Shown: positions 809 through 15,785 of the stretch, one piece after another
Layout: every line of letters begins with the position of its first letter
How positions within the stretch are numbered: the stretch's first letter is position 1
Source: Planctomycetota bacterium
GTDB lineage: Bacteria > Planctomycetota > Planctomycetia > Pirellulales > Lacipirellulaceae
DNA: 64,000 nucleotides
Direction of reading: 5' to 3'
Assembly: GCA_029259915.1 (NCBI GenBank)
Contig: JAJDED010000010.1
Span: 62,001-126,000, forward strand
Position numbers and translations under genes: made by a program
Notes under the pieces: generated by a model
What the model was told of the DNA's origin: nothing
Seen by the model: the letters and a program-made list of their open reading frames with translations, nothing else
Database searches by the model: none

Positions 809-3028
809 TTACATGGCCGAAGTGCGCATTTCCATGGGTTGCTTGAGCAACCACAGACTGAAAACGCTGAAAGCAATCATCCCCGCCAACATGGGGAGCT
901 GACTGCGAAACGCCGCCTGGCGATTGCCAAAAAGATTTAACGAAGTTCGTTGCGCGACCCACAGACTAAACACGTGTCCAACTAAAACTAAAAGAACTTG
1001 CAGAATCCAGAGTACGTCGAGCGACACCAACGGCGGAACGCGCCAATCGAGCGTACCGAACATATTCCAGCCCCAGCCGAATGGGTCGGACAACAGCGAC
1101 ACCACCTTAGGCCCTTCCATAAGCAAATGCTCAAGGTTGTGGGCGAGATGGTAGAACAAGGCGATCGGGAGCAGCGCATAGGCGTAACGAATGAAATAGT
1201 CGCGGTACGTCATTCGTGTCGGCGTTTCGATTCCTGCCACCATCCGAAACGAAAAATGCACAAGCACTGCATAAATGAGAATCGGCGCGATCATCAAGCC
1301 CGCCATGCCGATTGAAAAAGAAATCATATGCCCCACCGAAAAACTACTGCTGAGCCAATCAGTCAGTCGGTGCCAATTGGGCGTCATGGTCAATCCATGA
1401 AAACCGGTGATCGAAAGCATCAACAGCGCAAGATAGGCTTCGTCGGACCGTGCCCGATGATTGGCTACCAAGTCGGCGCCCCAAGGCCGAAGATTGAGCG
1501 CCAAATTGTCTTCAGGACATGCCTGAATGCATTCGGAACACTGAATGCAGTACGTGTTCTCCGTGAGATTACCGGGATATAAAAACGTCGGACAGCCGTA
1601 GGCCGTTTCGCTGCCATGCACACATTCCTTGCCATGGCACGTTCGACATGTGCCCTCGTCTTTTGCGCGAATCTCCACACCGGAGAACATGGCATACAGC
1701 CCACTCACTCTTCCCACCAGGCACGCGTACCGGCAAAAACCTTTGCGCTCGAAGAGAAACGCGCTGACAATCGCCATCAGCAACATCGCGATTGCCAGGT
1801 AGGCCGTCACGCGCGGTTTCATCGTGACGCCAAAACCAAGTTCGACCCACGTCAGACCCACAAAGAGTATTGTCGCGATCAAAACATTGCGCAGCGCTCG
1901 GGGCCATTTCAAGTTGAGCCCCAGGCCTTCGTCCGTTTTGCGCCAGAATCGCAGCTTTTCCATCCAGCCCGCCACGGCATCCCACGGGCAAACAAAGCAC
2001 CAAGCCTTGCCGGCAAACATAATGAGAATCACCAGCCCGCCCCACCACACGGTCCACGTCAGTAGCGGAGCGATGTTGAGCGCCGGATTCTGATTTCCAA
2101 ATAGTCCTGCGGCTATGATTAGAAAGAACAAAACCACCATCACCGCTTGGCAAAAAAAGCGAAACGGCCGGTTGGTGGCTAAAAAGAAAAACACTCGATT
2201 CTTTAGCAGATCGATGCGGTCGGTTGCCGCAGATTGTTTGACCGACGCCCGGGCAGGCCTTCCAATCACCGGCAACGTGGCCACGGCGGCGGTCGCGAAC
2301 CGCTTGGTTCCGTTGACTATTGGCCCACTCCCCTCAAACACGCCGAAGCTAACCACCAACACACAGCTAATCGAAATGTAATACATCCAGGGCGGGATGC
2401 CCCACATCGTGTGCATGAAGTAAGCCGCCGGGTCGGACTTGAACTGCGTGCGATGCTCCTCGCTGCAAACGTGATAGGTTTTGCCAAGGTAGGTCGCTGT
2501 CAAATTTGCGCCTGGATCGACTAACTCGCTACACACGATGCAGCGGTCGCCGAGAAAGTCATCAGGGGAAGCCACAAAACGGTCGCGGCAGGCGCTGGTG
2601 CAGAAATGGTATTTGGTGCCTTCATACCGGGCCGAAAATCCCCACGACGGGGCAACTTCCATGTGACATACCGGATCGAGCGGATGACCGCCGCTTTCGC
2701 CAGCAGAGGTTGCTGAAGAGTCAGCGATTCTCGTTCCGCTGCCCTGTGATGTGGCTTCCAGTTCATCGTCGTCTTTTGACTTAGCGCGAGCCAGGCAGTG
2801 TTCGCAACAGTAGTAACTTACGGTTCCGTCGGTTTCTTGAACAACGGCATGCTCGACATCGAGCGACGAGCCGCAGCCACCACACGTCGCTTGCGTTGCG
2901 CCTACAGGCTCAGACACCGAATGCGCGTCGATCGTCTCCGCCCCCGGTCGATAGTGCGAAGCAACAATGGCAATGCCAATGCCAAAAAATAACGAATAGG
3001 GCAGGAAAATTTTGAGCAGGGATTTCAT
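809..3028 (-). CDS. YHS-domain/NapH-like membrane iron-sulfur protein
   Basis: 739 residues, last gene of the operon. After an N-terminal membrane segment come three Cys-rich YHS/TRASH-like units at about residues 49-80 (CGGCGS..YYCCEHC), 119-150 (DPVCHMEV..FCTSACRDRF) and 163-195 (CIVCSEL..HVCSEEH). Several membrane helices follow, with CFVCPW and CRYACLVG motifs typical of NapH/NosR/FixG polyferredoxins, and one clear ferredoxin motif CIQCSECIQACP. A CRTCH sequence sits among the C-terminal cysteines; I do not count it as heme because it is followed by a Cys-rich segment and a CP motif. YHS units in related proteins bind metal; electron transfer to or from quinones is inferred from the NapH-like part. 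The fusion of three YHS units to NapH is unusual. Confidence 0.8.
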   Translation of the reverse strand: MKSLLKIFLPYSLFFGIGIAIVASHYRPGAETIDAHSVSEPVGATQATCGGCGSSLDVEHAVVQETDGTVSYYCCEHCLARAKSKDDDELEATSQGSGTRIADSSATSAGESGGHPLDPVCHMEVAPSWGFSARYEGTKYHFCTSACRDRFVASPDDFLGDRCIVCSELVDPGANLTATYLGKTYHVCSEEHRTQFKSDPAAYFMHTMWGIPPWMYYISISCVLVVSFGVFEGSGPIVNGTKRFATAAVATLPVIGRPARASVKQSAATDRIDLLKNRVFFFLATNRPFRFFCQAVMVVLFFLIIAAGLFGNQNPALNIAPLLTWTVWWGGLVILIMFAGKAWCFVCPWDAVAGWMEKLRFWRKTDEGLGLNLKWPRALRNVLIATILFVGLTWVELGFGVTMKPRVTAYLAIAMLLMAIVSAFLFERKGFCRYACLVGRVSGLYAMFSGVEIRAKDEGTCRTCHGKECVHGSETAYGCPTFLYPGNLTENTYCIQCSECIQACPEDNLALNLRPWGADLVANHRARSDEAYLALLMLSITGFHGLTMTPNWHRLTDWLSSSFSVGHMISFSIGMAGLMIAPILIYAVLVHFSFRMVAGIETPTRMTYRDYFIRYAYALLPIALFYHLAHNLEHLLMEGPKVVSLLSDPFGWGWNMFGTLDWRVPPLVSLDVLWILQVLLVLVGHVFSLWVAQRTSLNLFGNRQAAFRSQLPMLAGMIAFSVFSLWLLKQPMEMRTSAM

Positions 3029-3038
3029 CGCGGTTTGT

Positions 3039-4619
3039 TTAGGGGTGCGTGGCTACATGTGAACCGGTGATTAGCGGTTGTTCGTTTGGTTCTAAGATTG
3101 TGATGTCAGCACTTCGCTTTTGTTGTTTGATCTTGATCGCCCGGACAACCACCAGAAAACAAGCCAAACCCAACACGATGGCAACCACTACCGACACCGT
3201 AGCCGTAGGGTTACCTACGACGATCAAAAACGGAATCACTTCCTGCTGACCTTCGACCTGCATGGTCAGCTCGACCACGAATTCGGCCTCTTCAGGAAAA
3301 TTGATGGTAAAGCGATGCTGATTGTCAAACGCTTGGTGCGTGGTCGACGGATGGACGATCGTGTTGTCGCCGAAGGTGGCGGTTTGCAGGACGCGAACTG
3401 CTACCGGCTGGTCGTAAGGCCGGTTTGTGTTGCGATCTTTAATATAAAAAGCAATGGTTGCCGCTTCGCCAGGCACAGGCCTACCGGGATAGGAAGTCAT
3501 GAGCACGTCGTAGGGACCCGTCGTGGCCGGATATTCCAACGTCGGTGCCTGCGGATAATTTTCTTTGTACGAGTAGTGTGGCAGCCCAAGAATATGGTGT
3601 CCCAAGGCCGTCGAAGGCAACAGCACGGTAAAGACCAGCGCTATCAAAACAACCTTCAGCGCCACAGCCGGCAGGTCTTTTTGACCATGCCCTTTCCCCC
3701 GCTGTTTCGTGATTCCTGGCAGCACGAACGCAAAGCTCAACGCATCGGAATCGCAGGCCTGAATGCAGGAAGCACAATTCGTGCATTCCATGCCTGTTTG
3801 GGCGACCAGCATCGGTCGCAAGTCGAACTGACACGTGGTGACACAATCGCCGCACTGAACGCAGTTTTGCTCGTTGCGCTGAACACGAACCAAACGAAAA
3901 CGACCCAACAGCGAGTACAAACCGCCGCCGGGACAAATAACTCGGCACCACCAACGTCGGCTCACAAACAGCTCGAATACACAAATGGCCAGAATCAAAT
4001 AGACACCCACACCGATGCCCGTGCCGAACACAAACAGATGCAATTCGCGGCTGATGACCGCCGGCGGGTAAATCATTGCTAAAAAAGGCACACTACTCAC
4101 CGCAACAAACCCGAGCGATACGGCTAGCACCAGATATTTTGTCCCTTTCGAGAAGCGCACGTCACGCTCGCGAATTTCAAGCAAGCCAAGCCACCGTCGG
4201 CAGCGATCGACCAACTCCAGCAACGTATTCATCGGACATATCCAGCCACAAAAAACACGCCCCAGTAACACGCTAAGAATGATTGGCACCACAAGCGACC
4301 ACAACAGCGGCACATAAAACGAACGGCTACTCACAATCGCTTCTGCTCCTGCAAGCGGATCGGAAAGGCTATATCCCAAGATCCTCGCCGACCAAAACGT
4401 TCCCTGCGTGGTCTCAACCATTTGGCGACGCGAATTACTTTCGCCCACCGCTGCATCCACACCACGGATGGCCGTGCTGCGCCAACCGTCGGGCAAATCG
4501 CCGATCGCCCGGGCAGCTTTGTAGTGGGTGGTCAGTGCAAAAATTGGGAGCAGCGCGAGAACCGCAATGCTTGCGATCTGAACAATTCGCCGCATGAAGG
4601 GCACGAGTTGTTTGCTCAT
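3039..4619 (-). CDS. napH: NapH-like polyferredoxin with C-terminal periplasmic domain
   Basis: 526 residues from the ATG at 4617-4619, which overlaps the previous gene's stop (ATGA); a longer upstream reading is possible but would overlap napG. Membrane helices carry the CGWICPMNT and CRVICPGGG motifs of NapH/CcoG-type proteins, followed by two 4Fe-4S motifs (CVQCGDCVTTC and CTNCASCIQAC). After another hydrophobic segment comes about 140 residues of beta-rich sequence like the extracytoplasmic domain of FixG/YtkA-type proteins, then a last membrane helix and a short basic tail. NapH normally oxidises quinol and passes electrons to NapG; the same role is inferred here. Confidence 0.82.
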   Translation of the reverse strand: MSKQLVPFMRRIVQIASIAVLALLPIFALTTHYKAARAIGDLPDGWRSTAIRGVDAAVGESNSRRQMVETTQGTFWSARILGYSLSDPLAGAEAIVSSRSFYVPLLWSLVVPIILSVLLGRVFCGWICPMNTLLELVDRCRRWLGLLEIRERDVRFSKGTKYLVLAVSLGFVAVSSVPFLAMIYPPAVISRELHLFVFGTGIGVGVYLILAICVFELFVSRRWWCRVICPGGGLYSLLGRFRLVRVQRNEQNCVQCGDCVTTCQFDLRPMLVAQTGMECTNCASCIQACDSDALSFAFVLPGITKQRGKGHGQKDLPAVALKVVLIALVFTVLLPSTALGHHILGLPHYSYKENYPQAPTLEYPATTGPYDVLMTSYPGRPVPGEAATIAFYIKDRNTNRPYDQPVAVRVLQTATFGDNTIVHPSTTHQAFDNQHRFTINFPEEAEFVVELTMQVEGQQEVIPFLIVVGNPTATVSVVVAIVLGLACFLVVVRAIKIKQQKRSADITILEPNEQPLITGSHVATHP

Positions 4620-5245
4620 ATTATGCCCTCCGTCGCCGCGGCACTGCCGAGCGGATACACGCGAATCGCCCGGTAGGGGACGATACATACCTCTTCGCAG
4701 AGCCCACACCCCGTGCAATGTTCTGGATGCACCGTAGGAGCGTTGAACAGCCCTTGCGTAATCGCTTCACCCCGGAGCGGGCACGCGGTAAAACATGCGC
4801 CACATGCCCCGGTACGCAAATGCGAAACGCAAAGGTTTTCGTCCACCGCCGCCCCACCCATGCGTACTTCGTTTTTCTCTGCCAACGGCAGGAGCGCACC
4901 CGTGGGACATACCTCGCCGCATTTCAGACAAAGCGTACAAGCTTTCTCGCGAGGAACTATGGTCGGCGTATGGCGGTCGGGCTCGCCGTCGGGTTTCATC
5001 TGAATGCAGCCAGGCGGGCAGACGTCTTGGCATAGATAACAATGAATACAACTCGCCAGAAAATCGGGCTCGTCCACCGCGCCGGGAGGGCGAAACGTGT
5101 GTTCAAGTTTGTCGTCAACGCGAGGCCTGGCCGTGTGACGCTCGCCAGCGCCCAGGCGAAGCAAAGCCGCCGTGCCAACCACGGTGACACATACCGCCGA
5201 GGATTTTGCGACTCGAGCCAACCATTTGCGCCGTGAGCTTATCAT
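4616..5245 (-). CDS. napG: NapG-like periplasmic ferredoxin (second copy)
   Basis: 209 residues with four 4Fe-4S binding motifs: CIHCYLCQDVCPPGC, CTLCLKCGEVCP, an irregular CVSHLRTGACGACFTACP, and CTGCGLCEEVC. The N-terminus SRRKWLARVAKSS followed by a hydrophobic run resembles a twin-arginine export signal. In Nap systems NapG carries electrons between the NapH quinol site and periplasmic acceptors. It overlaps both neighbours by four bases (ATGA), indicating translational coupling. It is paired with a second NapG-like protein immediately upstream; the two share the four-cluster layout but differ in sequence, so the duplication is old. Confidence 0.85.
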   Translation of the reverse strand: MISSRRKWLARVAKSSAVCVTVVGTAALLRLGAGERHTARPRVDDKLEHTFRPPGAVDEPDFLASCIHCYLCQDVCPPGCIQMKPDGEPDRHTPTIVPREKACTLCLKCGEVCPTGALLPLAEKNEVRMGGAAVDENLCVSHLRTGACGACFTACPLRGEAITQGLFNAPTVHPEHCTGCGLCEEVCIVPYRAIRVYPLGSAAATEGII

Positions 5246-5883
5246 CCGTCGCCCTCAACAGAAACCGTCGGTCGCGCGGCTCGGCCAACTGGCTCAATGC
5301 GAACGGCTTGTGGATAACGAATGCATGCTCGCTCGCACAAACCGCAACCAATACATGCTTCTTCGATAATCGTGGGCCGTTCCCACATGCCAAGCTTGAT
5401 CGCGCCCACGGGACAAGCATAAAAACATGTGCCGCAGGTGTAGTTGTTGTAGGAGTAACAAAGGTTCAGGTCGATCTTTGCCACGCCCATCTGTACGTTT
5501 TCTTGAACATCTTCGAGGGTCTTACGAATCGGCTGGAGCGCACCGCTGGGGCACGCCTCGGTACAACGGAGATAGTCACCTTCAGAGCGGCTGCAGAGCA
5601 TGCAAGCTTGTTCGCGAGGTTTGATGTGCGGAGTGCCCGCTATTGCGCGCCCCGCGGAGGCGGGCAACGATTTAATCGCTAAATTCGGGCAGGCGTCGAC
5701 GCAGCGCATGCAGCGGATACACGTGGCAATAAAATCTTCCTCGGGCAATGCGCCGGGGGGGCGCAGCGAGGGCGATCCTGCGCCGCTCGCTGCGTTCCAT
5801 GCCCCCGTTGTAAACACGCCGGCTGTTGCAGCCGCTCCAACGCCTGCCAAATTTCGGAAGAATTCTCGCCGTGAATCGGTCAC
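5242..5883 (-). CDS. napG: NapG-like periplasmic ferredoxin (first copy)
   Basis: 213 residues from a GTG start one base after the napA stop, with an AGGA ribosome-binding site 8 bases upstream. The N-terminus has SRREFFRNLAGVGAAATAG, a good twin-arginine signal. Four Fe-S motifs follow: CIRCMRCVDACP, CMLCSRSEGDYLRCTEACP (widened spacing), CYSYNNYTCGTCFYACP and CIGCGLCERAC. The family moves electrons in the periplasm alongside NapH. The ATGA overlap with the next gene suggests the two ferredoxins are made in matched amounts. Confidence 0.86.
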   Translation of the reverse strand: MTDSRREFFRNLAGVGAAATAGVFTTGAWNAASGAGSPSLRPPGALPEEDFIATCIRCMRCVDACPNLAIKSLPASAGRAIAGTPHIKPREQACMLCSRSEGDYLRCTEACPSGALQPIRKTLEDVQENVQMGVAKIDLNLCYSYNNYTCGTCFYACPVGAIKLGMWERPTIIEEACIGCGLCERACIRYPQAVRIEPVGRAARPTVSVEGDG

Positions 5884-5884
5884 G

Positions 5885-8647
5885 CTAAATCCTTTCGATC
5901 CGAGCTGCCGATTTCTTAAAATCTGCCTGACCGCTCACCGGATCCCAGGCGCGGTGGCTCACTGCGTTCACCAACCAGCGATTCTCCGATGGGTTGGCCG
6001 TGTCGGCAACCGACAGATTCCAAGGACTGAACAGATATCCCTCAGGCACCTCGCTCCGCGAAGGTCGCAATTCGCTTTGCAGTCCGATTGTCACTCGGCA
6101 TTCGTAGCTGCCACGCCGCGTGACAATGCGCACCATGTCGCCGTCGCGCAAGCCAAACCGCTCGGCGTCGTAAAGATTCATCTCGACGTATTGCTCGGGC
6201 ACCAGTTTCTGCGTCGTTGCGCCACGAATCGTTTTAGCGGAGTGGAAATGTTCGTAAACAATGCCCAGACCCAGCCAGAAGGGATAGACGTCGCTCCGCT
6301 TGTGATCGGCCAATCCCAACGCCTGGTTTTCATAAACGTCGAGGTGCGGCAGATCGGGCGTGAGAGCCAAGTCACGTGCCTGGACCAATATGTTGTCCCG
6401 GCCTTCGCGAGCGGCGTCGGCCAACTCGTCGATGAGCCACGGGCCTTGTCCCGGACGATCGCGATGCCCGTATTGCATCAGCTTGTCGGTCACCTCCACG
6501 ATGTTGCTGTAATCCTGCTCGCAGAGTTTCATCAATGCTTTGCCGTTGGGTCGGCTGAAGGTGCCGTACGGTTTGCCAGCCCAACCTTCCTGCCCGAGAT
6601 AACGTCGTGGTGTGCCGCCCTTGCGAGCAATTTCGTACGTGGGCGCCGGCCACTGCACACCGCGCAGTTCGCGGATCTGATCGTAAAGGCCAATGCCATC
6701 GCGCGCTTCGACTTCCAGCATGCCGGTGAGATCGGCGTCGCTCCCTTTGCTGGCGGCAACAATGTCGCGGAAGACCTCTTCGGGATCGTAAACCATGGTG
6801 CCATTACCAGCGGGAATCTTCTTTTTGTAAGGAAAAACTTTGTCCGGATCGAGTCCAAGCTTTTTGCACAACGCCTTGCTTTTGTCGATCGCCATGTCCA
6901 TGTCGGGACGGCATTCGCTCTTGCCGGTCTCGGGATCGGCCACGGGATTGTTCGTGCCATCGCACACGTAAACGCGGCGCTCCGACTGGATATAGGTTCC
7001 ACCGTGCCATTCTCCCCAAGTGGAAGCGGGAAAGATGACGTCGCCATACAGCAGATTCGGCGCGTGACGATAAATATCTTGCACGACGCAAAACATGCGC
7101 GTCATCGCTGGGCGCACGAGATTCTGCACGTCGGGCAAATGAATGTGCGTGGTGTACATCCAGAACATCGCCTGGAGTTGGTCGTCCCCTTCGCGCAGCG
7201 CCCTTTCCATCATGCCCATGACCATGCCCGGATTGGCCAACAGCGCGGTTTCTTGCAGACGATCGCGCGGCACGCGCCAGGCGTCGGCAATGTGATCGCG
7301 CCAGGCAGCGTTCTTTAGCGGTTGATTGAACGGCAATCGGCCCGTCAATCCGCCCATCAAACGTTCGCTCATCGCGTTGGGCTGACCCGTTTGCGAATGG
7401 CTACCGCACCCGGGGCGGCCTAAGTTGCCTGTGAGCAAATGAAGATTGATGATGCTGATCGTGTTGTGCTGGCCATGCAGCATCTGGTTGTAACCGATGC
7501 CCCAAAAACTAAGCACGCCCCCGCGGCCACGTTGCCGACCCTTGATCGAAGCAGCCGCCCACAGCCGGGCCGCTTCCTCGATTTGCTCGACCGTCACCCG
7601 CCCACGATCCAAAAGCCGCAACCGCTGGACAACTTGCTCGGGAGAATAACGCTCGCGGATGCCCGTGATGTAATCTTGATAGCCGTCGACATTTTCCTCG
7701 AGCCATTCCTCGGGCATACATGCTTCGGGATACTTGGTGATCAGCACGTGAGCGATCGCGTTCAGGTAGCTGATGTCGCCGTTGAGCGTGGCAAAATGCA
7801 GACTGTTTCTGGGATTGATATCCTCCAAACCAATCGCCGTGCCGGTGCGACGTGGATCGGCGACCAGCGTGGGGATGCCCGTCTTTTGTTTGTGGTCGGC
7901 AACACGCCAAAACAGAATCGGATGGGCTTCGCGCGCGTTGTGACCCCAGAACGTAATGAAGTCGGCTTCTTCGATATCTTCGTAACTGGTTGGCGGTGCA
8001 TCGCTGCCGTAGCTGTGGAAGTAACCGGTCACCGCCGAGGTCATGCACATGCGGGCATTCGCTTCGATCGAGTTGCTTTGGATGATGCCCTTCATCAACA
8101 GGTTCTCGATCCATTGGGCCTCCATCGTAAGCTGACCGCTGCCGGTCAGGGCGATGGAATTGCCCCCTTTGGCCTTGATGATTTCGGCAATTTTCTCAGC
8201 CACCATCTCTTCGGCTTCTTCGTACGGCATCTCGTCAAACACGTCTTCGTCGAAGCGCCCCTTGGTGCTGGAAACGTGCCCTCGCAGCGGGTCACTCATG
8301 TCCTTGCGCACCAACACTTTGAGCAGGCGATCTTTATAAATGGGTTCATGGGCGTTGAGTCCCTTGATGCATTGGATTCCCTTGTTGGTCGGGTGTTTCT
8401 TGTCGGGAATCATGCCGACCACTTTGCCGTTTTCGACTTTGATCAACGTGCCGCAACCGACGCCGCAATAAGGGCACGCGGCTTGCAAAAGTTTCACGCC
8501 CTGTGCAGCCGGCACCGGGGCTGCGTTGAGCGCTTGAATATATTCCTCCGGAAAACAAGTCGTGGCCGCGACGCCAACGCCCGTGGTGGCCGCCATTTGC
8601 ATGAACCGGCGACGATCAAATTCTTCAAGTCCGCGTCGAATACCCAT
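5885..8647 (-). CDS. napA: NapA-like molybdopterin oxidoreductase (periplasmic nitrate reductase family)
   Basis: 920 residues, somewhat longer than typical NapA (about 830). DRRRFMQMAATTG near residue 11 is a twin-arginine signal. The 4Fe-4S cluster ligands are C58, C61, C65 (CPYCGVGC) and C93. C201 in ARMCMTSAV is the expected molybdenum ligand. NapA/NasA-type signatures follow (HLLTGNLGRPG, TGQPNAMSER) and a C-terminal molybdopterin-dinucleotide binding domain. GAGGAG lies 9 bases before the ATG. The family reduces nitrate in the periplasm, but the sequence is divergent and several related enzymes use other substrates, so nitrate is the best guess rather than a certainty. No NapB, NapC or NapD gene is nearby; a decaheme cytochrome precedes it by three bases. 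Confidence 0.88.
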   Translation of the reverse strand: MGIRRGLEEFDRRRFMQMAATTGVGVAATTCFPEEYIQALNAAPVPAAQGVKLLQAACPYCGVGCGTLIKVENGKVVGMIPDKKHPTNKGIQCIKGLNAHEPIYKDRLLKVLVRKDMSDPLRGHVSSTKGRFDEDVFDEMPYEEAEEMVAEKIAEIIKAKGGNSIALTGSGQLTMEAQWIENLLMKGIIQSNSIEANARMCMTSAVTGYFHSYGSDAPPTSYEDIEEADFITFWGHNAREAHPILFWRVADHKQKTGIPTLVADPRRTGTAIGLEDINPRNSLHFATLNGDISYLNAIAHVLITKYPEACMPEEWLEENVDGYQDYITGIRERYSPEQVVQRLRLLDRGRVTVEQIEEAARLWAAASIKGRQRGRGGVLSFWGIGYNQMLHGQHNTISIINLHLLTGNLGRPGCGSHSQTGQPNAMSERLMGGLTGRLPFNQPLKNAAWRDHIADAWRVPRDRLQETALLANPGMVMGMMERALREGDDQLQAMFWMYTTHIHLPDVQNLVRPAMTRMFCVVQDIYRHAPNLLYGDVIFPASTWGEWHGGTYIQSERRVYVCDGTNNPVADPETGKSECRPDMDMAIDKSKALCKKLGLDPDKVFPYKKKIPAGNGTMVYDPEEVFRDIVAASKGSDADLTGMLEVEARDGIGLYDQIRELRGVQWPAPTYEIARKGGTPRRYLGQEGWAGKPYGTFSRPNGKALMKLCEQDYSNIVEVTDKLMQYGHRDRPGQGPWLIDELADAAREGRDNILVQARDLALTPDLPHLDVYENQALGLADHKRSDVYPFWLGLGIVYEHFHSAKTIRGATTQKLVPEQYVEMNLYDAERFGLRDGDMVRIVTRRGSYECRVTIGLQSELRPSRSEVPEGYLFSPWNLSVADTANPSENRWLVNAVSHRAWDPVSGQADFKKSAARIERI

Positions 8648-8650
8648 CGC

Positions 8651-11491
8651 TTATCTCCTCATTTCAATTGGTCGATGATCGGTGACTTTTTCCCCGACCG
8701 GGCCGGGGCTTTGTTTTTCTGGTTGTCGCAGGGGTTGCTGCTGCGGTTGTTGTTCCGCAAATGGTTCGGTCCGACGCATCGGGCGCATGTCGGGACTCCA
8801 CTGGCGAATGAACGACACGATGTCGTTCACCTGTTCCTGTGTGAGATCGGCCAAACCGTGCCGACCGATGCCGAATGGTCGCATCGCCGTGCCGCGACGT
8901 CCGCGAATGATTGTCGCCTGCAAATAGCCGTCCGTCGCCGCCCGTAGGAAGCCGGCATTGTTCAGCTCGGGTGCGAAATTGCCCGTGCCATCCGCACCAT
9001 GGCAACCGGCGCAGAATTGACCATACAAGTGTTCTCCCTGATCGGGATTGGCACCGATCACAAACCGATGCGCCGGCTGCGACGTCGGTTCCGCCGTACG
9101 GAGATAAGCAATCAAGTCGTCGATTTCGTCCGCGCGAAATTCGACTATCCCTCCGCCATGGTGACCCATCGCACGCATTTCGGTTCCATCGCGACCCAAC
9201 ACAATAGTCGCGCGAAGAAATCCGTCAGATGCCGCGGCCAAAAACGCCGGATTGCGAATCGCCGGTCCGTTAGCCCCTTCACCATTCGGGCCATGGCAAC
9301 CGGCGCAGGCACGCTGATAGGTAACTTCGCCGCGCGGAGCATAACCCAAGCCAATCTGTTGCCCCACGATCGCCTTACGGCCAGTCTGGTGCCGCAGGAA
9401 CGTGGCAATGTCTTCAATCTGATGCGGCGACAACTCGGCAGCGCCTTGTAATCCGCGTAGAAACGGTCGCATCTGGGTGCCCGTGCGTCCGTGGCTGATC
9501 CATTCGACCAGCACTGCATCGCTCACCGTTTCGAGAAACACCGGGTTGACCAGTTGGGGACCAATGGCACCTTCCGCCTGTGGGCCGTGGCAACTGGCAC
9601 ACATCCCTTGATAAAGCAGTGCCCCATTCTGCCAGTCGCCGGTTAGGTGGATGTCGTCAAGTTGTTTCGCGGGCTCGGTCTGCCAAGAACGCAAAAGTGC
9701 GATCAAGTCGATCACGTCGTCGGTCCCCAGTTGCCGCCAGGCAGGCATCGCCGTGCCGGGGCGACCGCGGACGATCGTGTCGTGCAAAAAGGCATTCGAA
9801 ACAACCGACAACACCGACTGGTTGTTGAGCGACGGCCCGATGCTGCCCTGGCCATTCTCGCCATGGCAAACAATACAACGACTCCGATAAAGTATGCGTC
9901 CGGTGGCCACATGATCGGCAGGCGGAGTGTTGGCAACCAACACTCTGCTGCGAAGCACCGCACTGCGCTCGGACTGTAGCGGCTGCCAACCGCGAATGAA
10001 GGCCAGCAGATCGCTTACTTCGCGATTGTCGAATTGTCGCCATGACGGCATCGCCGTGTTGGGTCGTCCGCGGAGGATCGTCGAAGCAAGAAAATCATCA
10101 CTGGCGATCGCCAGGAGCGTGGACGCACGAAGCGAGATGCCGATCTGACCACCGCGTCCATCGTTGCCATGGCAGCCGGCACAGTTCGCGCGGAACAGCG
10201 CCCCACCGATCCGCGCGTCGCCGCGCGATGCGGAAATCATCGCGCTGTCGGCCTCCCGCGGTTCCCAACGTCGGATCGTGGCGACCAACAGCTCGATTTC
10301 GTCGTCGCTCAAGCCCCCCTGCTCCGCCCATGCAGGCATGCTGGTGCCGGGACGACCTTCCGCGATGATGGTGCGCAGGTAGTCGTCGCTGGCAACACCC
10401 AGCGTGTCGATATTTCGCAAAGATGGGGTGAGCAACTCCCGCGGATGGTCGATCAGCTTGGCTGCCTCGGCATCGCGAACAATGGCGCCAACGCCGTCGG
10501 AACCATGGCAGGCAGCACAATAGGTTTTGTACAAAGTCTCGCCGCGGACTGGTGTCGAGTCGACTTCGCGCGGCAGCGGCGTGTAAGCGGCCGGTGCTGA
10601 TTTGTGCTTCAGGCTGATCATGTAAGCAGCCAAGTCGTGCGCTTCGTCGTCGGTGAGCCCCATCTCCGGCATCACCGTGTTGGGAACAATTGCAGAGGGT
10701 GATTTGAAGTGGACGAACATCCAGTTTTCCACCGACCGCTCGCCATGGACGTGTTGAAAATCGAGATCATGGACCGTTTTTTCGCCCACGTGCGTAATGT
10801 CTGGCCCAAGCGACCCGCCACGTCCGCGATACTGGTGACAACCCAGGCAACCTTTCTCCACGACCAGGCGTTTGCCCTTCGCAAGATTGTCGGCACCTGG
10901 CAGTCCCGCCGCCAATTCGCCGCTCGAGATGTTTACGATGGGGCTTGTCTGTCCATAAAGATCGCTTTGCCCGCCATAGAGGTCGTTTTCGTAATGGCAG
11001 CGGCCACAACTCGTGTAAACCATCTTGCCGGCCAACAGCGGCTCTTCCCAATGGGCCGCATTGTGTCCGCGTTTGTTGAGCACGTTGGCATGGGCGTCGG
11101 CTACACTCGTCGCACGGCCCTGCCCTTGGTGGCAAATGGTGCAGCCAAATTTGTCGGACGGATGATGCTTGAGAATGTCTCCCGGATGCGCGGCAAGCGG
11201 AATCGGCTGGCCTTGCATCGCCGGGTTGTCGATGCCCACGTGACACGTCACACACCGGTCCACTCGTCCGAGTTCTTCTAAGTAAATCTGCCGAACTTCT
11301 ATCGGATAACTGACGGAGGTTGCATCACTCTCAACGGCTGCGTTTTCGATGAGTCGGGCATAGGCACTCTGATGTTCACGCCACTTCGAGGAAAAGTTCT
11401 CTTGCTGTGCCGCCAATAGCAAGAAAGCCAAGAAGACCAGGCTGGAACCCAGTAGCACGACCTTCATCAAACGAAGATGAGATTGTTCCAT
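8651..11491 (-). CDS. Membrane-anchored decaheme cytochrome c with six tandem cytochrome c domains
   Basis: 946 residues from the ATG at 11491 (AGGA 8 bases upstream, just after the cytochrome b stop). One membrane anchor at about residues 11-28 is followed by ten CxxCH heme motifs at about residues 80, 117, 162, 215, 325, 437, 539, 631, 729 and 827. The last six each head a repeat of about 100 residues containing CHG..G and, about 55 residues later, a TxMP or TxMR segment giving the probable axial methionine. This looks like serial duplication of one class I cytochrome c domain. It sits between cytochrome b and NapA, so it is the likely electron wire from the bc-type complex to the molybdoenzyme. 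The tail is Gln/Pro-rich. Confidence 0.9.
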   Translation of the reverse strand: MEQSHLRLMKVVLLGSSLVFLAFLLLAAQQENFSSKWREHQSAYARLIENAAVESDATSVSYPIEVRQIYLEELGRVDRCVTCHVGIDNPAMQGQPIPLAAHPGDILKHHPSDKFGCTICHQGQGRATSVADAHANVLNKRGHNAAHWEEPLLAGKMVYTSCGRCHYENDLYGGQSDLYGQTSPIVNISSGELAAGLPGADNLAKGKRLVVEKGCLGCHQYRGRGGSLGPDITHVGEKTVHDLDFQHVHGERSVENWMFVHFKSPSAIVPNTVMPEMGLTDDEAHDLAAYMISLKHKSAPAAYTPLPREVDSTPVRGETLYKTYCAACHGSDGVGAIVRDAEAAKLIDHPRELLTPSLRNIDTLGVASDDYLRTIIAEGRPGTSMPAWAEQGGLSDDEIELLVATIRRWEPREADSAMISASRGDARIGGALFRANCAGCHGNDGRGGQIGISLRASTLLAIASDDFLASTILRGRPNTAMPSWRQFDNREVSDLLAFIRGWQPLQSERSAVLRSRVLVANTPPADHVATGRILYRSRCIVCHGENGQGSIGPSLNNQSVLSVVSNAFLHDTIVRGRPGTAMPAWRQLGTDDVIDLIALLRSWQTEPAKQLDDIHLTGDWQNGALLYQGMCASCHGPQAEGAIGPQLVNPVFLETVSDAVLVEWISHGRTGTQMRPFLRGLQGAAELSPHQIEDIATFLRHQTGRKAIVGQQIGLGYAPRGEVTYQRACAGCHGPNGEGANGPAIRNPAFLAAASDGFLRATIVLGRDGTEMRAMGHHGGGIVEFRADEIDDLIAYLRTAEPTSQPAHRFVIGANPDQGEHLYGQFCAGCHGADGTGNFAPELNNAGFLRAATDGYLQATIIRGRRGTAMRPFGIGRHGLADLTQEQVNDIVSFIRQWSPDMRPMRRTEPFAEQQPQQQPLRQPEKQSPGPVGEKVTDHRPIEMRR

Positions 11492-11501
11492 GGCGGTTGT
11501 C

Positions 11502-13121
11502 CTAATGTGTCGGCCACTGGTCTTGCGACCAATAAAAATCCCAGTTCGGGCCACGGTGCACGGTTGCGAAATAAGTCAAAATTACAAATGCGATCAGAAA
11601 ACAGGTAAACACGGCCAAAGCACCCATGCGCGTCGAGTTGGTTGCTTTCGTAATGCCGAGGGACCACGCCATGAATACGACAAGCAGCACCGTACCCGGG
11701 TTGACCAGTGTGATCACGATCTGTGGAATACCCGGGAACCAGCTGCGAAGCCAACCGTATTGCACCGTGAAAATAAGCATGCCGATCACGACCACCGCGG
11801 TGACGATCGCCGTCAACAGACAGATCCACTTGCCTAGACTGCCGCCGAACCAGATGCCAACATCCTCTTCATCGCGGTCGAGGTACGGCACACACATCAA
11901 CCCAAGCACAACAATTGCCGGAATCCCCACGCCACCCATGAAGGCGGAGTAACTCACAAGTTCCTGAAGACCAAGGAAGTACCACGGGGCCTTGGCCGGG
12001 TTTTCTGGAACCGCCGGATTGGCCATCTCCTTCAGTGGTGCGTCATAGTAGTAGCCCAAGGCGAGCATCGCCGCCAAGGTGAGCATTGTCAGCGCAGCGA
12101 TTGCATACAGGGCCCCGGGATAGGTCGGTACGGTGTTGGCCATGGCGCGATCAACCGCGGGCGTTTTGCCGCGCACGACCGCCATCAACCCGTAAGTGCG
12201 AGAGGGGCGCATTGCAGGCGAGCTTTCCAGCGCGTTTGCGCTGCCGTTCGCGCCAGAACTTCCCGTAGCCGGAAGAGCATCCGTGTAAGCCGGCCGCGTC
12301 AAACCGCCGTCCTTACGAATTCTCCAAAAGTGCACACCCAGCAACACCGCCGTCATTAGCGGCAACACCATCACATGCAGTAAGTAAAAGCGAATCAACG
12401 CTTCCTGCCCAACCTGGTTCGCACCCAACAGCAACCGCTTCTGGAATCCGCCAATGTCGCACCAGTCGGTAATCCCCAACGCATCGGTCAATTCCCGAGG
12501 CGACTGGGCGATTTCAGAGCCAATCGTCACGGCCCAAAACGCGAGTTGATCCCAAGGCAACAAATAGCCAGTGAAACTTAGTGCCAATGTCAACACAAAG
12601 AGCAACATGCCGACAACCCAGTTGAATTGCCGCGCCCCTTTGTAGGCTGCCGTGTAAAACGCGCGAGCCATGTGCAACATGACCATAGCCACCATCGCGT
12701 GGGCCCCCCACCGATGGATGTTCCGCACAAAGCGTCCGGTCGGCACGATGTAATGAATCTCCTTCATCGAGTCGTAAGCCTGATCGATCGACGGCTTGTA
12801 GTAAATCATCAACGGAATGCCCGTCGCGGTCAGCAACAAGAACAGCACAAGCGTGATAATGCCCAGCCCCCACGTGGCCCGAATCCGCATCGAATAGCGG
12901 TGGATTCGCGTCGGCATTATGTGCAGGAAGAAATTCGTGAACACCGCCTGCGACGCGGCACGGTCCGACGTAGGACGACCATGCCGAATCAACGAGTCAC
13001 GAAAGCTCCGCGGCACGCTGCGCAAATTCTTAAGATAGCGCTGGATGGCGCTTTGAGGTTGCCCGTTCGCAGGAGCGCCTTGCTCGGGTTCTTGACGAGA
13101 TTCTTTTGTGTCCGTGACCAT
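11502..13121 (-). CDS. Cytochrome b (b6-type plus subunit IV in one chain)
   Basis: 539 residues. The N-terminal half has the four heme-ligand histidines H136 and H150 (IHRWGAHAMVAMVMLH) and H249 and H264. Their spacings of 14 and 15 match cytochrome b6 rather than mitochondrial cytochrome b. The C-terminal half carries KAPWYFLGLQE, the counterpart of the PEWY quinol-site motif of subunit IV, so b6 and subunit IV are fused. A linker of about 60 residues rich in Ala/Ser/Gly joins them. The protein should oxidise quinol in the membrane together with the Rieske protein encoded two bases upstream. Confidence 0.92.
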   Translation of the reverse strand: MVTDTKESRQEPEQGAPANGQPQSAIQRYLKNLRSVPRSFRDSLIRHGRPTSDRAASQAVFTNFFLHIMPTRIHRYSMRIRATWGLGIITLVLFLLLTATGIPLMIYYKPSIDQAYDSMKEIHYIVPTGRFVRNIHRWGAHAMVAMVMLHMARAFYTAAYKGARQFNWVVGMLLFVLTLALSFTGYLLPWDQLAFWAVTIGSEIAQSPRELTDALGITDWCDIGGFQKRLLLGANQVGQEALIRFYLLHVMVLPLMTAVLLGVHFWRIRKDGGLTRPAYTDALPATGSSGANGSANALESSPAMRPSRTYGLMAVVRGKTPAVDRAMANTVPTYPGALYAIAALTMLTLAAMLALGYYYDAPLKEMANPAVPENPAKAPWYFLGLQELVSYSAFMGGVGIPAIVVLGLMCVPYLDRDEEDVGIWFGGSLGKWICLLTAIVTAVVVIGMLIFTVQYGWLRSWFPGIPQIVITLVNPGTVLLVVFMAWSLGITKATNSTRMGALAVFTCFLIAFVILTYFATVHRGPNWDFYWSQDQWPTH

Positions 13122-13123
13122 GG

Positions 13124-13609
13124 TTACACCTTCAACCTCACGTCGGCTCCGACTTCTGCCTGTTTGTCGACGACCAACTGCCCGTCTGGAGAAACGCGGA
13201 GTTGCAAGTACATCAGCGGTTTTGGCGCCGGGCCTTGGGTGACCTGCCCTTGCACGTCAAAGCGACTTCCATGACAGGGACAGTGAAAGCCTTTCTCTCC
13301 GCCGTTCGTGACAATACATCCCAAGTGCGTACAAATCGCCGAGATGGCATACAAACCTGCTTTGTCTGCATAGATCCACAACCGGTGCTCAGGAATGGGA
13401 GTCATGCTCGAGGCCAAAAACGACGGCAAGGGGCCAAGCTTCACCCGACTGTTCGACTCGGGAAATACCGACGGCATCGGTAACCGCATCGCTCCCAATG
13501 TGGCAACGCCTAATGCCACCGCAGCCGACCAAAGTGCCGCCAAGCCAAGAAAATCACGTCGCTCCTTGGGAGCCTGAAAACGTTCACTCTGTTGAAGGTC
13601 GTTACTCAT
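13124..13609 (-). CDS. Rieske 2Fe-2S protein
   Basis: 161 residues with one N-terminal membrane anchor (about residues 19-40) and a Rieske domain. The cluster ligands are C93 and H95 in CTHLGC and C110 and H113 in CPCHGS; C98 and C112 would form the usual disulfide. It takes electrons from quinol at the cytochrome b site and passes them to a cytochrome c. Its ATG overlaps the stop of the upstream flavoprotein gene (ATGA), and the cytochrome b gene starts two bases after its stop. Confidence 0.95.
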   Translation of the reverse strand: MSNDLQQSERFQAPKERRDFLGLAALWSAAVALGVATLGAMRLPMPSVFPESNSRVKLGPLPSFLASSMTPIPEHRLWIYADKAGLYAISAICTHLGCIVTNGGEKGFHCPCHGSRFDVQGQVTQGPAPKPLMYLQLRVSPDGQLVVDKQAEVGADVRLKV

Positions 13610-15513
13610 ACCACAACACCCTCATTAGCTTCGATGGACCAAGAACTTGTCGTGCGAATCTGCTCCATCGTGATCGCGCCTACCGGACATCGCTCCGCAC
13701 ACAAAGCACAGCGGATGCACTTGGTCTCGTCCTTAATAATGGCCGAAAAACTGTCCTGCCCTTCTCCTTCCAGACGGCTGTCGAACACCTGCTGCATCAT
13801 GTCATCGCCAGCCAGTCGGTCGAGCGATACAAGCTCCAGGCAAATCTCGGGGCAAACATCCGCACACCCGCCGCAGAGAATACATTTGTCCGAATCAAAA
13901 ATCGTATTGATCCCACAGTCCAAACAGCGGCAGCCTTCGCACGTCGCTTGCGGCTGGTCGTAGCCGAGCTCGACAATGGCTAGTTGGCTTGTCCTGCGCT
14001 GCTCGGGGCTGGCAGCCGGAATCGATACCCGTTCCAGCTTTTCGTAGTCTTTCTCTCGCGCATAATCTGGAAGCTCGACATGCGTGAGATCAATTTTCTC
14101 GACCAACCGTTGGCCGTGCAGTTGTTGGTAAATACTGCGGGCAACTTTTTTTCCGTTTGCCACGGCGTCGATGAGCAATCGTGGCCCGTAGGCGATGTCC
14201 CCAGCCAAGAACACATCTGAGGCCGTGGTGCGCATCGTCTCCTGATCGACTTCGATCAATCCTCGCTCGTTGCGCTTGATGTCCTCTGCAACTAAAAATG
14301 AAAGCTCCGCTTGTTGGCCGATTCCCCAGATCACCGTGTCGGCCTGAAGAGTGATTCGATCCGATTCGTCAAATTCGGGCGCAAAACGACCCTGATCGTC
14401 GAACACGCGTAAGCATTTCTGAAAAGTGACGCCCGTTGCCCGGCCCGACTTATCCTGCGTGATTTCCACGGGCCCCAAACTGTGGTGCCGGATCACGCCT
14501 TCTTCGTCTCCCTCAAGGATTTCCAGATCGTCAGCAGGCAATTCTTCAAGACTTTCCAAACTGCATAGATTTACCGAATGAACTCCCGACCGACGCAGCA
14601 CGGTGCGCGAAATATCGACACCTGTCTGTCGGACGACTGTGCGGGCGATGTCGTAGGCGACATTGCCGCCGCCGATCACAACCACGTTGCCGCGAATGTC
14701 GACATCCTTACCGACTGCCACGTCGCGCAAGAGTTCCACGCCGCCGAGTACCCCCTCGGCATCCGCTCCGGGAATGGGCAAAGACCGCGACCGTTTCAGC
14801 CCGATGGCAATGATCGTCGCATCATGCCGCCCTCGGATCTCGGCAAGAGAAATATCCTTGCCCACTTGCGTGTTGCAGCGAAACTCGACTCCCAAGGAGC
14901 GAATAAACTCGACCTCGGCAGCAATCAATTCTCGCGGCAAACGGTAAGAGGGAATGCCCACGGCAAGCATCCCGGCGGGAACCGATTCCATCTCAAACAC
15001 CGTAGGGCGACATCCAAGCAGCGCGAGATCATGCGCCGCGGCCAGCCCGGCCGGTCCGGAGCCGATGATGGCCACTTTTTTCCCCGACTCGTTCTCGGCA
15101 ATCTGTTGCTCTGATAAGAAACTGGAAAAACCGCTCAGTTCCTCGCACCGCACACTCACGCGATGATTCGCTTGGTCTACAAGCCGATTGATCAACTGTT
15201 TCGGAGAATCCTGTTTCTCTTTGGCATTCGCTCCGAAACGATCGGTCACAAAGCGTTTTAATGCGCGGATGGAAACTGCCTGATCAATGTCTTTGCGCCG
15301 ACAAGCAGCTTCGCAGGGAGCCCCGCATACCCGGCCGCAGATCGACGCCAGAGGGTTCGGACCCCGCGCGATCAAGTAAGCATCCTCGATCCGCCCCTCG
15401 GCGATTGCCCGGACGTAGCCACGCGCATCGGTATGGACAGGACAAGCCTCTTGGCATTTGACCTGCCGACGCCAGTAGTCGGGTGTCGGAACCTCGACCT
15501 GATACTGTTGCAT
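13606..15513 (-). CDS. GltD-like FAD/NAD(P) oxidoreductase with N- and C-terminal Fe-S domains
   Basis: 635 residues from the ATG at 15513 (AGGA 8 bases upstream); a TTG at 15546 is an alternative. The N-terminus has the Cys-rich Fe-S domain of glutamate-synthase small-subunit-like proteins (CQEACPVH, CGRVCGAPCEAAC). Then come an FAD site (IIGSGPAGLAAAHDL), an NAD(P)H site (VIGGGNVAYD) and two ferredoxin motifs at the C-terminus (CILCGGCADVCP, CIRCALCAERCP). Relatives move electrons between NAD(P)H and ferredoxin-like partners. It is the first gene of the operon and overlaps the Rieske gene, so it probably links the NAD(P)H pool to this complex; the direction is unknown. Confidence 0.85.
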   Translation of the reverse strand: MQQYQVEVPTPDYWRRQVKCQEACPVHTDARGYVRAIAEGRIEDAYLIARGPNPLASICGRVCGAPCEAACRRKDIDQAVSIRALKRFVTDRFGANAKEKQDSPKQLINRLVDQANHRVSVRCEELSGFSSFLSEQQIAENESGKKVAIIGSGPAGLAAAHDLALLGCRPTVFEMESVPAGMLAVGIPSYRLPRELIAAEVEFIRSLGVEFRCNTQVGKDISLAEIRGRHDATIIAIGLKRSRSLPIPGADAEGVLGGVELLRDVAVGKDVDIRGNVVVIGGGNVAYDIARTVVRQTGVDISRTVLRRSGVHSVNLCSLESLEELPADDLEILEGDEEGVIRHHSLGPVEITQDKSGRATGVTFQKCLRVFDDQGRFAPEFDESDRITLQADTVIWGIGQQAELSFLVAEDIKRNERGLIEVDQETMRTTASDVFLAGDIAYGPRLLIDAVANGKKVARSIYQQLHGQRLVEKIDLTHVELPDYAREKDYEKLERVSIPAASPEQRRTSQLAIVELGYDQPQATCEGCRCLDCGINTIFDSDKCILCGGCADVCPEICLELVSLDRLAGDDMMQQVFDSRLEGEGQDSFSAIIKDETKCIRCALCAERCPVGAITMEQIRTTSSWSIEANEGVVV

Positions 15514-15703
15514 GACAGGTATCCTGAGAGTTTGCCCAGCACCCAAGCATCAGGCACGTTTCCTTGATGCCGCAACTCTCACACTTTGCGACACCTTTGC
15601 CGTACCCGGCCTCAGGCAACTTCCTGGAACAGGGATCTGACGTTCTTCTCCCCAAAAAACTGCAAAAAAGCGGTGTTATGAGTCGATTTTCATTCTTGCA
15701 AAC

Positions 15704-15732
15704 AAACTACCCGCGGCTATAAAGGATGTCAA
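15704..15732 (-). promoter_or_regulatory. Predicted promoter of the respiratory operon
   Basis: On the minus strand a perfect TTGACA (15732-15727) is followed after 17 bases by TAGTTT (15709-15704), a fair -10 box. Transcription would start about 190 bases upstream of the first operon gene. It lies next to, and face-to-face with, a TATAAT at 15745-15750 that could serve the Rrf2 gene, so a regulator bound between them could control both. Confidence 0.4.
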
Positions 15733-15785
15733 GGTCCGAATATCTATAATTTGCCCTGCGGCTTGCGGCAGGCTAAGGTTCTTGC

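Follow-up and report, generated by a model that had tools for sequence, protein, structure and literature searches.

The window, a stretch of 64,000 nucleotides from an uncultured Planctomycetota bacterium (contig positions 62001-126000 in a 93.2% complete assembly of 4.2 Mb and 64 contigs), carries a compact minus-strand operon in which genes for a GltD-like flavoprotein, a Rieske protein, a cytochrome b, a deca-heme cytochrome c, a NapA-like molybdoenzyme, two NapG-like ferredoxins (NapG1 and NapG2), a NapH-like protein, and a YHS-NapH protein follow one another from position 15546 to position 809. These nine genes almost certainly represent a conserved functional unit, and on balance we favor the view that they encode a respiratory supercomplex that passes electrons from a Rieske/cytochrome b complex through the deca-heme cytochrome to the NapA-like enzyme and has a branch to NAD(P). 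An earlier note, made from the sequence alone, had described the operon and interpreted it along similar lines; the observation itself was confirmed, and the interpretation was borne out in part. All nine open reading frames (ORFs) were recovered, overlapping or nearly so, with two starts moved downstream, and the families to which the note had assigned them were upheld by scans with Pfam and curated models and by motif counts.

Among 297 genomes of the same class, 14 had a NapA-type hit at E ≤1e-60: the window's own, two others with 81 to 82% identity, and eleven with 34 to 38%. A species-representative collection, scanned with a three-member alignment, yielded at least 58 related loci with best-segment NapA identities of 67 to 91%, a count that stems from two exact peptide patterns and is a lower bound. 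Planctomycete-type loci were prominent (33), followed by those of Elusimicrobia (9), Deltaproteobacteria (4; Myxococcota in the tree tool), Wallbacteria (3), Latescibacterota, Verrucomicrobia, and Hydrogenedentota (1 each), and further bacteria (6), and the nearest named relatives of the NapA-like protein were planctomycetes. The search for the nine-gene order in other genomes, which the earlier note had proposed, showed that order and strand are kept in all 23 loci in which all nine genes were matched, across several phyla, as expected of one conserved unit; a chance neighborhood of common genes is thereby excluded. Where at least 8 kb of sequence lay upstream of NapA (39 of the 58 loci), the GltD, Rieske, cytochrome b, and cytochrome c genes were found in 30, always as a foursome, and the three loci with cytochrome b and no GltD (L043, L058, and L077) all had less than 6 kb of upstream sequence. 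When the phylum was sampled, the family profile matched in 14 of 392 genomes (9 of the 14 were already among the 58 loci, and one was the window's own, so the two sets overlap and do not count as independent); the architectures comprised five of the Rieske/cytochrome b type, two of the Alternative Complex III type, three with a six-heme class-I protein only, two (NapA identity, 57 to 60%) with only a two- or three-heme protein, and two that were cut by contig ends.

We suggest that the products of the operon form a single respiratory supercomplex or two closely coupled complexes. Menaquinol would be oxidized at the periplasmic side of the b6-like cytochrome b/Rieske complex; one electron would travel from the Rieske protein through the N-terminal hemes of the deca-heme cytochrome and its seven class-I hemes to the [4Fe-4S] cluster and molybdenum of the NapA-like enzyme, whose reaction is most likely the reduction of nitrate to nitrite, and the other would pass by way of hemes bP and bN, and probably a heme at the dimer interface, to the Fe-S clusters and FAD of the GltD-like protein, where NAD(P)+ would be reduced. 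The scheme corresponds to the electron splitting proposed for the anammox bacterium Kuenenia, with the high-potential acceptor encoded in the same operon. We infer the physical complex, the nitrate substrate, and the direction of the NAD(P) branch. The delivery of quinol-derived electrons to the NapA-like enzyme through class-I hemes is highly probable, whereas the making of NAD(P)H by electron splitting in the flavoprotein branch is a tentative suggestion that may well prove wrong; more doubtful again is the full picture of a widespread new respiratory machine that splits quinol within one operon, sends electrons to nitrate by a ten-heme wire and a new NapA-like subfamily, makes NAD(P)H without heme cN, and includes a module that can be plugged into Alternative Complex III. 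The energetics would permit the splitting: from published potentials (menaquinone, about -75 mV, and nitrate, +420 mV [PMC6195509]; NAD(P), -320 mV [PMC12954380]), one electron each way leaves a net +250 mV, or ~24 kJ per mole of quinol. The presence of MqnA/MqnD-family genes in the genome (two hits) fits the use of menaquinone.

An exchange of modules argues most strongly for a delivery of quinol-derived electrons to the NapA-like enzyme via class-I hemes without NapB. Loci of Elusimicrobia and some planctomycetes lack the Rieske/cytochrome b part and have Alternative Complex III genes (ActA-like, ActB-like, ActC [NrfD], and ActD) adjoining the NapA module; these loci, a nested group that is mostly Elusimicrobiota, retain NapA, NapG, NapH, YHS-NapH, and a homologous seven-heme array, and none of them contains GltD or cytochrome b. 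ActB was matched in 7 of the 58 loci and also downstream of L084 through its extension, L090; PF03916 was found in all three ActC candidates scanned and PF11821 was found in L092, and the ActB-like protein of L065 is a fusion of QrcB/QrcC-type parts. Within the Alternative Complex III cluster of all five extended loci lies a seven-heme class-I protein with 33 to 42% identity over 600 to 736 amino acids to the class-I part of the deca-heme cytochrome. The carriers of Alternative Complex III form one group in the NapA tree, of which the nearest outer row (L081) and further neighbors are of the Rieske/cytochrome b type, and this nesting indicates that the exchange was probably secondary. The swap shows that the flavoprotein belongs with the Rieske/cytochrome b complex and that the heme array belongs with the NapA-like enzyme, and the replacement of one quinol oxidase by another lends independent support to the suggestion in the earlier note that such an oxidase feeds the NapA-like enzyme.

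Exactly ten CXXCH motifs were present in all 37 uncut members of the ten-heme type; excluded from this count were 8 of 45 rows, namely, six cut by contig ends (L044, L055, L059, L069, L080, and L062) and two six-heme forms (L060 and L074). The ten hemes in one chain that the earlier note had remarked on are confirmed, and the chain proves to be composite, with a three-heme N-terminal part resembling the cytochromes of the Kuenenia Rieske/cytochrome b clusters and the other seven hemes in class-I (cbb3-subunit-III-like) domains. An M[PR] motif follows each of hemes 4 to 10 in the window's cytochrome; across the family it occurs 25 to 95 residues past these hemes in 17 to 37 of the 37 members, depending on the heme, a range that does not by itself establish His/Met ligation of all seven family-wide. 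A class-I heme protein is encoded directly upstream of NapA in 44 of the 58 loci.

The top two PDB matches of the Rieske protein, in a search of 177,635 sequences, were 9rk4 and 9rk3, the Kuenenia Rieske proteins Kuste4569 and Kustd1480 (PMC12954380, Table 1). A Kuenenia-like genome of the same phylum as the window, which shows 100% identity to PDB 9rk4 over 103 residues, holds two clusters that match the layouts of Kustd1480-1485 (R/b-2) and Kuste4569-4574 (R/b-3). Identities to the two clusters were 35 to 36% for the flavoprotein, 44 to 47% for cytochrome b, 32 to 43% for subunit IV, and 33 to 37% for the Rieske protein, and the cytochrome c showed 29 to 33% identity to the Kuenenia cytochromes over part of its length only; for the parts of the Kustd1480-85 type, the values were 36% over 620 amino acids for the flavoprotein, 47% for cytochrome b, and 32% for subunit IV. 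The earlier note had pointed to NAD(P)-linked Rieske/cytochrome b gene sets in anammox planctomycetes and had placed the flavoprotein on the NAD(P) side; the homology of all parts of the complex to both Kuenenia clusters agrees with the former, and the homology of the flavoprotein agrees with the latter. The Kuenenia complexes have been proposed to split menaquinol electrons, with one passing to a high-potential acceptor and one passing to NAD(P)+ via a predicted dimer-interface heme (PMC12954380). The interface-heme histidine (His67 in the window) was kept in 33 of 33 cytochromes b and the accompanying Arg/Lys (window positions 269/270) in 34 of 34; the counterpart of flavoprotein Arg550 of Kustd1483 (window Arg619) and 17 cysteines were kept in all 29 flavoproteins compared (of 32 GltD rows, three were too short); and the second-sphere pair of the Rieske protein was Ser/Phe in 32 of 32, as in Kustd1480, for which +335 mV was measured.

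Like R/b-2 and R/b-3, the window operon clusters a Rieske protein, a b6-like cytochrome b, a five-peak subunit IV, a GltD-like NAD(P) flavoprotein, and a multiheme cytochrome c, and its family retains the predicted interface-heme His and Arg/Lys. It differs in that cytochrome b and subunit IV are fused and lack the heme cN cysteine, in that the cytochrome has ten hemes rather than six or eight, and in that a NapA-like enzyme, NapG/H, and YHS-NapH follow. An HAO-like protein has been proposed as the acceptor for R/b-3, and none has been proposed for R/b-2; NAD(P)+ reduction by electron splitting is still a proposal in Kuenenia (PMC12954380). Membership in an Ext (selenite/tellurite) operon was considered and rejected, the ExtP/ExtQ models NF040969 and NF040970 scoring 241.3 of 290 bits and 47.4 of 150 bits, respectively, both under the cutoff.

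The NapA-like protein is ~30% identical to NapA proper and belongs to a clade of its own, 55 members strong with all pairwise identities at or above 66%, that lies outside the NapA clade. Its junction with the NapA references is moderately supported (SH-like approximate likelihood ratio test [SH-aLRT], 88), and the clade sits on a stem of 4.12 changes per column, versus less than 0.3 for the branches within, in a tree built by a quick method that gave long-branch warnings. The tree and the residue counts omit NapA members of 840 amino acids or fewer (4 of 59) and two deeper members (57 to 60% identity); cl_L010 (FdhF/YdeP type) and cl_L021 (a wrong-frame ORF) were left out of the tree and remain in the residue table, neither being a NapA reference. 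Residues R199, C201 (the Mo-ligand Cys), M202, D216, R429, and R437 were kept in 55 of 55 members and correspond, through an alignment to PDB 9pxt, to R174, C176, the next Met, D191, R463, and R471 of Campylobacter jejuni NapA. Six channel residues of that enzyme have been named, including R174, D191, R463, R471, Glu192, and His715 (PMC12769810), and four of the six are kept in all 55. The R471 position sets NapA proper, four planctomycete sequences grouping with NapA, and the window family apart from NasA, FdhF, and other references. Formate dehydrogenase was discarded as an identity for the enzyme, given the Met after the Mo-Cys and channel residues unlike those of four FdhF references. An AlphaFold model of moderate quality (mean pLDDT, 63.5) had NapA chains as its eight best PDB matches in Foldseek, followed by formate dehydrogenases, a result of supporting weight only.

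The enzyme thus shares with Nap a twin-arginine translocation (Tat) signal, a [4Fe-4S] site, the Mo-Cys, four of six channel residues, and NapG-/NapH-like partners, and it differs in being only ~30% identical, under the curated cutoffs, outside the clade, and encoded in a genome without a NapB or NapD match. The label NapA-like in the earlier note is accordingly sound, while the failure of the curated models means that this is not a true NapA; the description of a periplasmic molybdoenzyme without NapB agrees with the Tat signal, the Mo-Cys, and the lack of a NapB match in the assembly. Judged by its conserved residues, the enzyme probably has nitrate as its substrate. Since the clade falls far under current NapA cutoffs, nitrogen cycle surveys would miss or misname its members.

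None of the four genes downstream of NapA reaches the curated NapGH models TIGR00397 and TIGR02163, to which they are homologous but divergent. YHS-NapH is the last of the nine genes in all 23 complete loci, and NapG-/NapH-like genes accompany NapA also where no adjacent quinol oxidase was found. In Campylobacter, NapH is essential and the loss of NapG is highly deleterious, although Qcr supplies the electrons (PMC6195509). We infer that NapG, NapH, and YHS-NapH may be auxiliary, either helping to mature or reductively activate the NapA-like enzyme or providing a second point of quinol entry.

The earlier note had regarded NapB, NapC, and NapD as missing and had named their presence elsewhere in the genome as grounds for giving up its reading. 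In the window's own assembly, neither NapB nor NapD was matched, and this part stands; the sole NapC/NirT-type match is a 12-heme protein encoded ~2.9 to 3.1 kb past the window's low end, so for NapC the earlier note is right only in part. That protein belongs to a second Rieske/cytochrome b cluster below the window (L008:7523-16441; contig C64, ~52.5 to 61.4 kb), with 9-, 9-, 12- (NapC domain), and 11-heme proteins, two of them with b561-like membrane domains; the cluster looks like a multiheme, perhaps extracellular, electron transfer system. The NapC-domain protein was rejected as a constant supplier of the NapA-like enzyme, none of the genes of its cluster having a best match anywhere in the 58 loci, and it may still play such a role in this one genome. 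The genome also encodes an FdhF/YdeP-type protein and one further NarG/NXR-type catalytic subunit (L012:160-3714, contig C18; 1,184 amino acids).

A number of findings weigh against the proposed scheme in one part or another. No biochemistry on any family member was found in the open-license literature searched. With regard to the enzyme, the curated NapA models TIGR01706 and NF010055 gave 279.0 of 930.55 bits and 297.2 of 904 bits, respectively; the equivalent of channel residue Glu192 is Ala in 41 and Thr in 14 of the 55 members; and the equivalent of His715 was not located, its place falling outside the aligned stretches of the 9pxt alignment. With two of the six channel residues changed or not located, the case for nitrate is reduced. 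An NrfA-type nitrite reductase was not found in the genome, save for a partial match in the neighboring 11-heme protein. In L084, NXR-type alpha, beta, delta, and heme-gamma genes lie between the NapA-like gene and NapG (L084:12940-19717), and the NarG/NXR-type subunit of the window genome shows 55% identity, over approximately its full length, to the alpha subunit there, so that nitrogen oxides might flow in either direction. With regard to the NAD(P) branch, all 29 flavoproteins have Gly where the other Kuenenia flavoprotein, Kuste4570, has Arg511. Both Kuenenia cytochromes b carry the heme cN cysteine; the corresponding position, filled in 33 of 35 rows of the window family, holds Gly in 32 and Ala in 1, and the complex is therefore no plain copy of that of Kuenenia. 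The cytochrome b of the neighboring cluster also aligns a His at the interface site, but without Arg/Lys and with no flavoprotein gene beside it, and the interface His alone is thus unspecific. Finally, the flavoprotein-free loci (those with Alternative Complex III and those with two-, three-, or six-heme proteins) show that the NAD(P) branch is dispensable for the NapA-like enzyme.

These findings give some room to other explanations. The NapA-like enzyme might handle another oxyanion, or it might work alongside an NXR-type enzyme in the oxidation of nitrite to nitrate, the hemes draining the electrons; the long stem of the clade and the replaced Glu192, the NXR-type genes of L084 together with the homolog in the window genome, and the report of two metagenome-assembled genomes (MAGs) in which Nxr and Nap genes both precede an Alternative Complex III-like cluster (PMC10732223) all point this way, but we consider it unlikely given that the equivalents of R174, C176, D191, R463, and R471 and the following Met are kept throughout, that the R471 position groups the family with NapA, and that NXR genes occur in just 1 of the 58 loci. 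It is likewise rather improbable that the NAD(P) branch is reversed or regulatory, so that NAD(P)H would reduce cytochrome b by way of the GltD-like protein and the whole would keep redox balance by working as an NAD(P)H:quinone/nitrate oxidoreductase. Such flavoproteins are generally reversible, the wiring is identical both ways, and the missing heme cN cysteine alters the low-potential branch relative to that of Kuenenia. However, the residues named for electron passage from cytochrome b into the flavoprotein Kustd1483 are conserved, though Arg511 of Kuste4570 is not, and in Kuenenia a reversed branch has been argued to waste energy (PMC12954380). There is a small chance that NapG and NapH feed the NapA-like enzyme directly from quinol and that the Rieske/cytochrome b-deca-heme part serves another acceptor, as the persistence of NapG-/NapH-like genes beside NapA where no adjacent quinol oxidase was found would allow; the position of the class-I heme protein, directly before NapA in 44 of 58 loci and in the Alternative Complex III cluster of all five extended loci, and the need of Campylobacter for Qcr in nitrate reduction despite NapGH (PMC6195509) argue otherwise. 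The domain names are those of an ordinary nap operon, but to suppose such an operon with an unrelated chance neighbor is scarcely credible in view of the constant nine-gene order, the ten hemes in every uncut member, the spread over several phyla, and a genome without a napB or napD match.

With the Rieske/cytochrome b-deca-heme-NapA route retained as the preferred explanation, its place among known systems can be considered. The earlier note contrasted the operon with a usual Nap that relies on NapC and NapB, a contrast that needs correction, as Nap systems without NapB/NapC have been published, among them those of the NapGH and NapM types and Nap supplied by Qcr (PMC6195509, PMC6896113, PMC5317091). 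Nor is a Rieske/cytochrome b complex wired to a NapA-like enzyme as unfamiliar as that note supposed, there being precedents in the Caldithrix abyssi nap cluster and in haloarchaeal nar clusters (Rieske and cytochrome b genes in a haloarchaeal nar cluster, as cited in PMC4683180). In C. abyssi, the two genes lie within a nap cluster without NapB/NapC, with a NapM tetraheme protein in place of the deca-heme cytochrome, another gene order, and an adjoining putative nitrite reductase; the passages on the locus make no mention of a GltD-like protein (PMC5317091). In Campylobacter and Wolinella, a bc-type complex supplies periplasmic nitrate reduction from a separate qcrABC operon, with NapB present, and the passages on these systems name no NAD(P) flavoprotein (PMC6195509). 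In two MAGs from a tunnel, Nap and Nxr genes are followed by Alternative Complex III-like genes, which were interpreted as a possible nitrite reductase or respiratory complex; the passages concerned describe no Rieske/cytochrome b form or seven-heme array, and the word "Rieske" is absent from the text (PMC10732223). These clusters are perhaps of the same family as L070 and L084. No description of the nine-gene unit, of a seven- or ten-heme array before NapA, or of the NapA-like clade was found in the accessible text of the open-license literature searched, and we regard the operon as a new variant alongside the known associations of Rieske/cytochrome b and nitrate reductase genes.

In Kuenenia, no reaction has yet been proposed to drive NAD(P)+ reduction by the Kustd1480-1485 complex, and heme cN has been discussed both as a step uphill and as a place where quinone could undergo undesired reduction (PMC12954380). 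With a likely acceptor enzyme encoded in the same operon and no heme cN cysteine, the family would allow a clearer test of whether electrons from quinol are split toward NAD(P)H. Replacement of the Rieske/cytochrome b part by Alternative Complex III with retention of the seven-heme array is also a natural experiment on the function of Alternative Complex III; the flavoprotein is missing from such loci, which suggests that Alternative Complex III does not split electrons likewise.

The features of the operon and its upstream region are collected in Table 1. Overlaps of 4 bp occur at the GltD/Rieske, NapG1/NapG2, and NapG2/NapH junctions, and with corrected starts the other junctions within the operon are gaps of 1 to 10 bp. 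For NapH, the likely start is not the listed TTG at 4718 but the ATG at 4619, which shares bases with the NapG2 stop, and the cytochrome c likely starts at an ATG near 11491 rather than at the listed GTG at 11554.

Table 1. Genes of the operon and its divergent upstream region, in window coordinates
Feature	Coordinates	Strand	Evidence
GltD-like FAD/NAD(P) flavoprotein, N- and C-terminal [4Fe-4S] sites, presumably cytoplasmic	13606..15546	-	PF07992, PF14691, Fer4
Rieske [2Fe-2S] protein, CTHLGC ... CPCHGSRF	13124..13609	-	PF00355, 50.2 bits
Cytochrome b, b6-type half fused to subunit-IV-like half	11502..13121	-	PF00033, 126.8 bits; five hydropathy peaks in subunit-IV-like half
Deca-heme cytochrome c	8651..11491 (listed ORF 8651-11554)	-	Ten CXXCH
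NapA-like Mo-bisMGD enzyme, Tat signal and [4Fe-4S], predicted terminal reductase	5885..8647	-	PF00384, PF04879, PF01568
NapG1-like periplasmic ferredoxin, Tat-type RREFF	5242..5883	-	TIGR00397, 112.5 bits (below cutoff, 178.85)
NapG2-like periplasmic ferredoxin	4616..5245	-	TIGR00397, 101.4 bits (below cutoff, 178.85)
NapH-like polyferredoxin membrane protein, C-terminal extension	3039..4619	-	TIGR02163, 144.3 bits (below cutoff, 213.05)
YHS-NapH, 739 aa: YHS-type metal-binding domain and NapH-like polyferredoxin membrane protein	809..3028	-	PF04945, 56.5 bits; PF12801, 22.2 bits; TIGR02163, 47.9 bits (below cutoff, 213.05)
Divergent intergenic region, 239 bp, presumed promoter/operator	15547..15785	.	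Position only
Rrf2-family regulator, divergent	15786..16292	+	PF02082; rrf2_super above cutoff

ORFs of 11 other loci cluster with the window's Rrf2 regulator, and 6 more fall in a second Rrf2-like cluster. Genes for hybrid cluster protein (HCP) and protoglobin separate Rieske from cytochrome b in two loci (L033:2536-4533 and L034:2175-4173) and stand upstream of cytochrome b in a third (L077:3-1746), and a hemerythrin gene occurs in seven, downstream of the operon in six and next to cytochrome b in L058; the names HCP, protoglobin, and hemerythrin come from scanning one representative of each against Pfam. Such neighbors are in keeping with nitrogen-oxide chemistry and do not prove it. In the Elusimicrobia loci L061, L065, L066, L084, and L088, we take further neighbors to be MoaA- and MobA-like molybdenum-cofactor genes, with a MoeA-like gene in three; an alginate-export-type porin gene, scanned in L088, clusters with the NapA-like module in the same five loci. 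A tyrosine phenol-lyase/tryptophanase-type gene, of which one of five was scanned, recurs near the NapA-like cluster in the flanks of L061, L065, L066, L084, and L039, with no obvious link to it. Elsewhere in the window, positions 43612-45090 encode a sigma-54 activator domain joined to a protoglobin, which might act as a gas-sensing regulator, and positions 27041-30573 hold a reading frame that we take to be an RND-type efflux pump. This frame is broken near 28.3 kb into two overlapping ORFs in different frames, the result of a frameshift or an assembly error.

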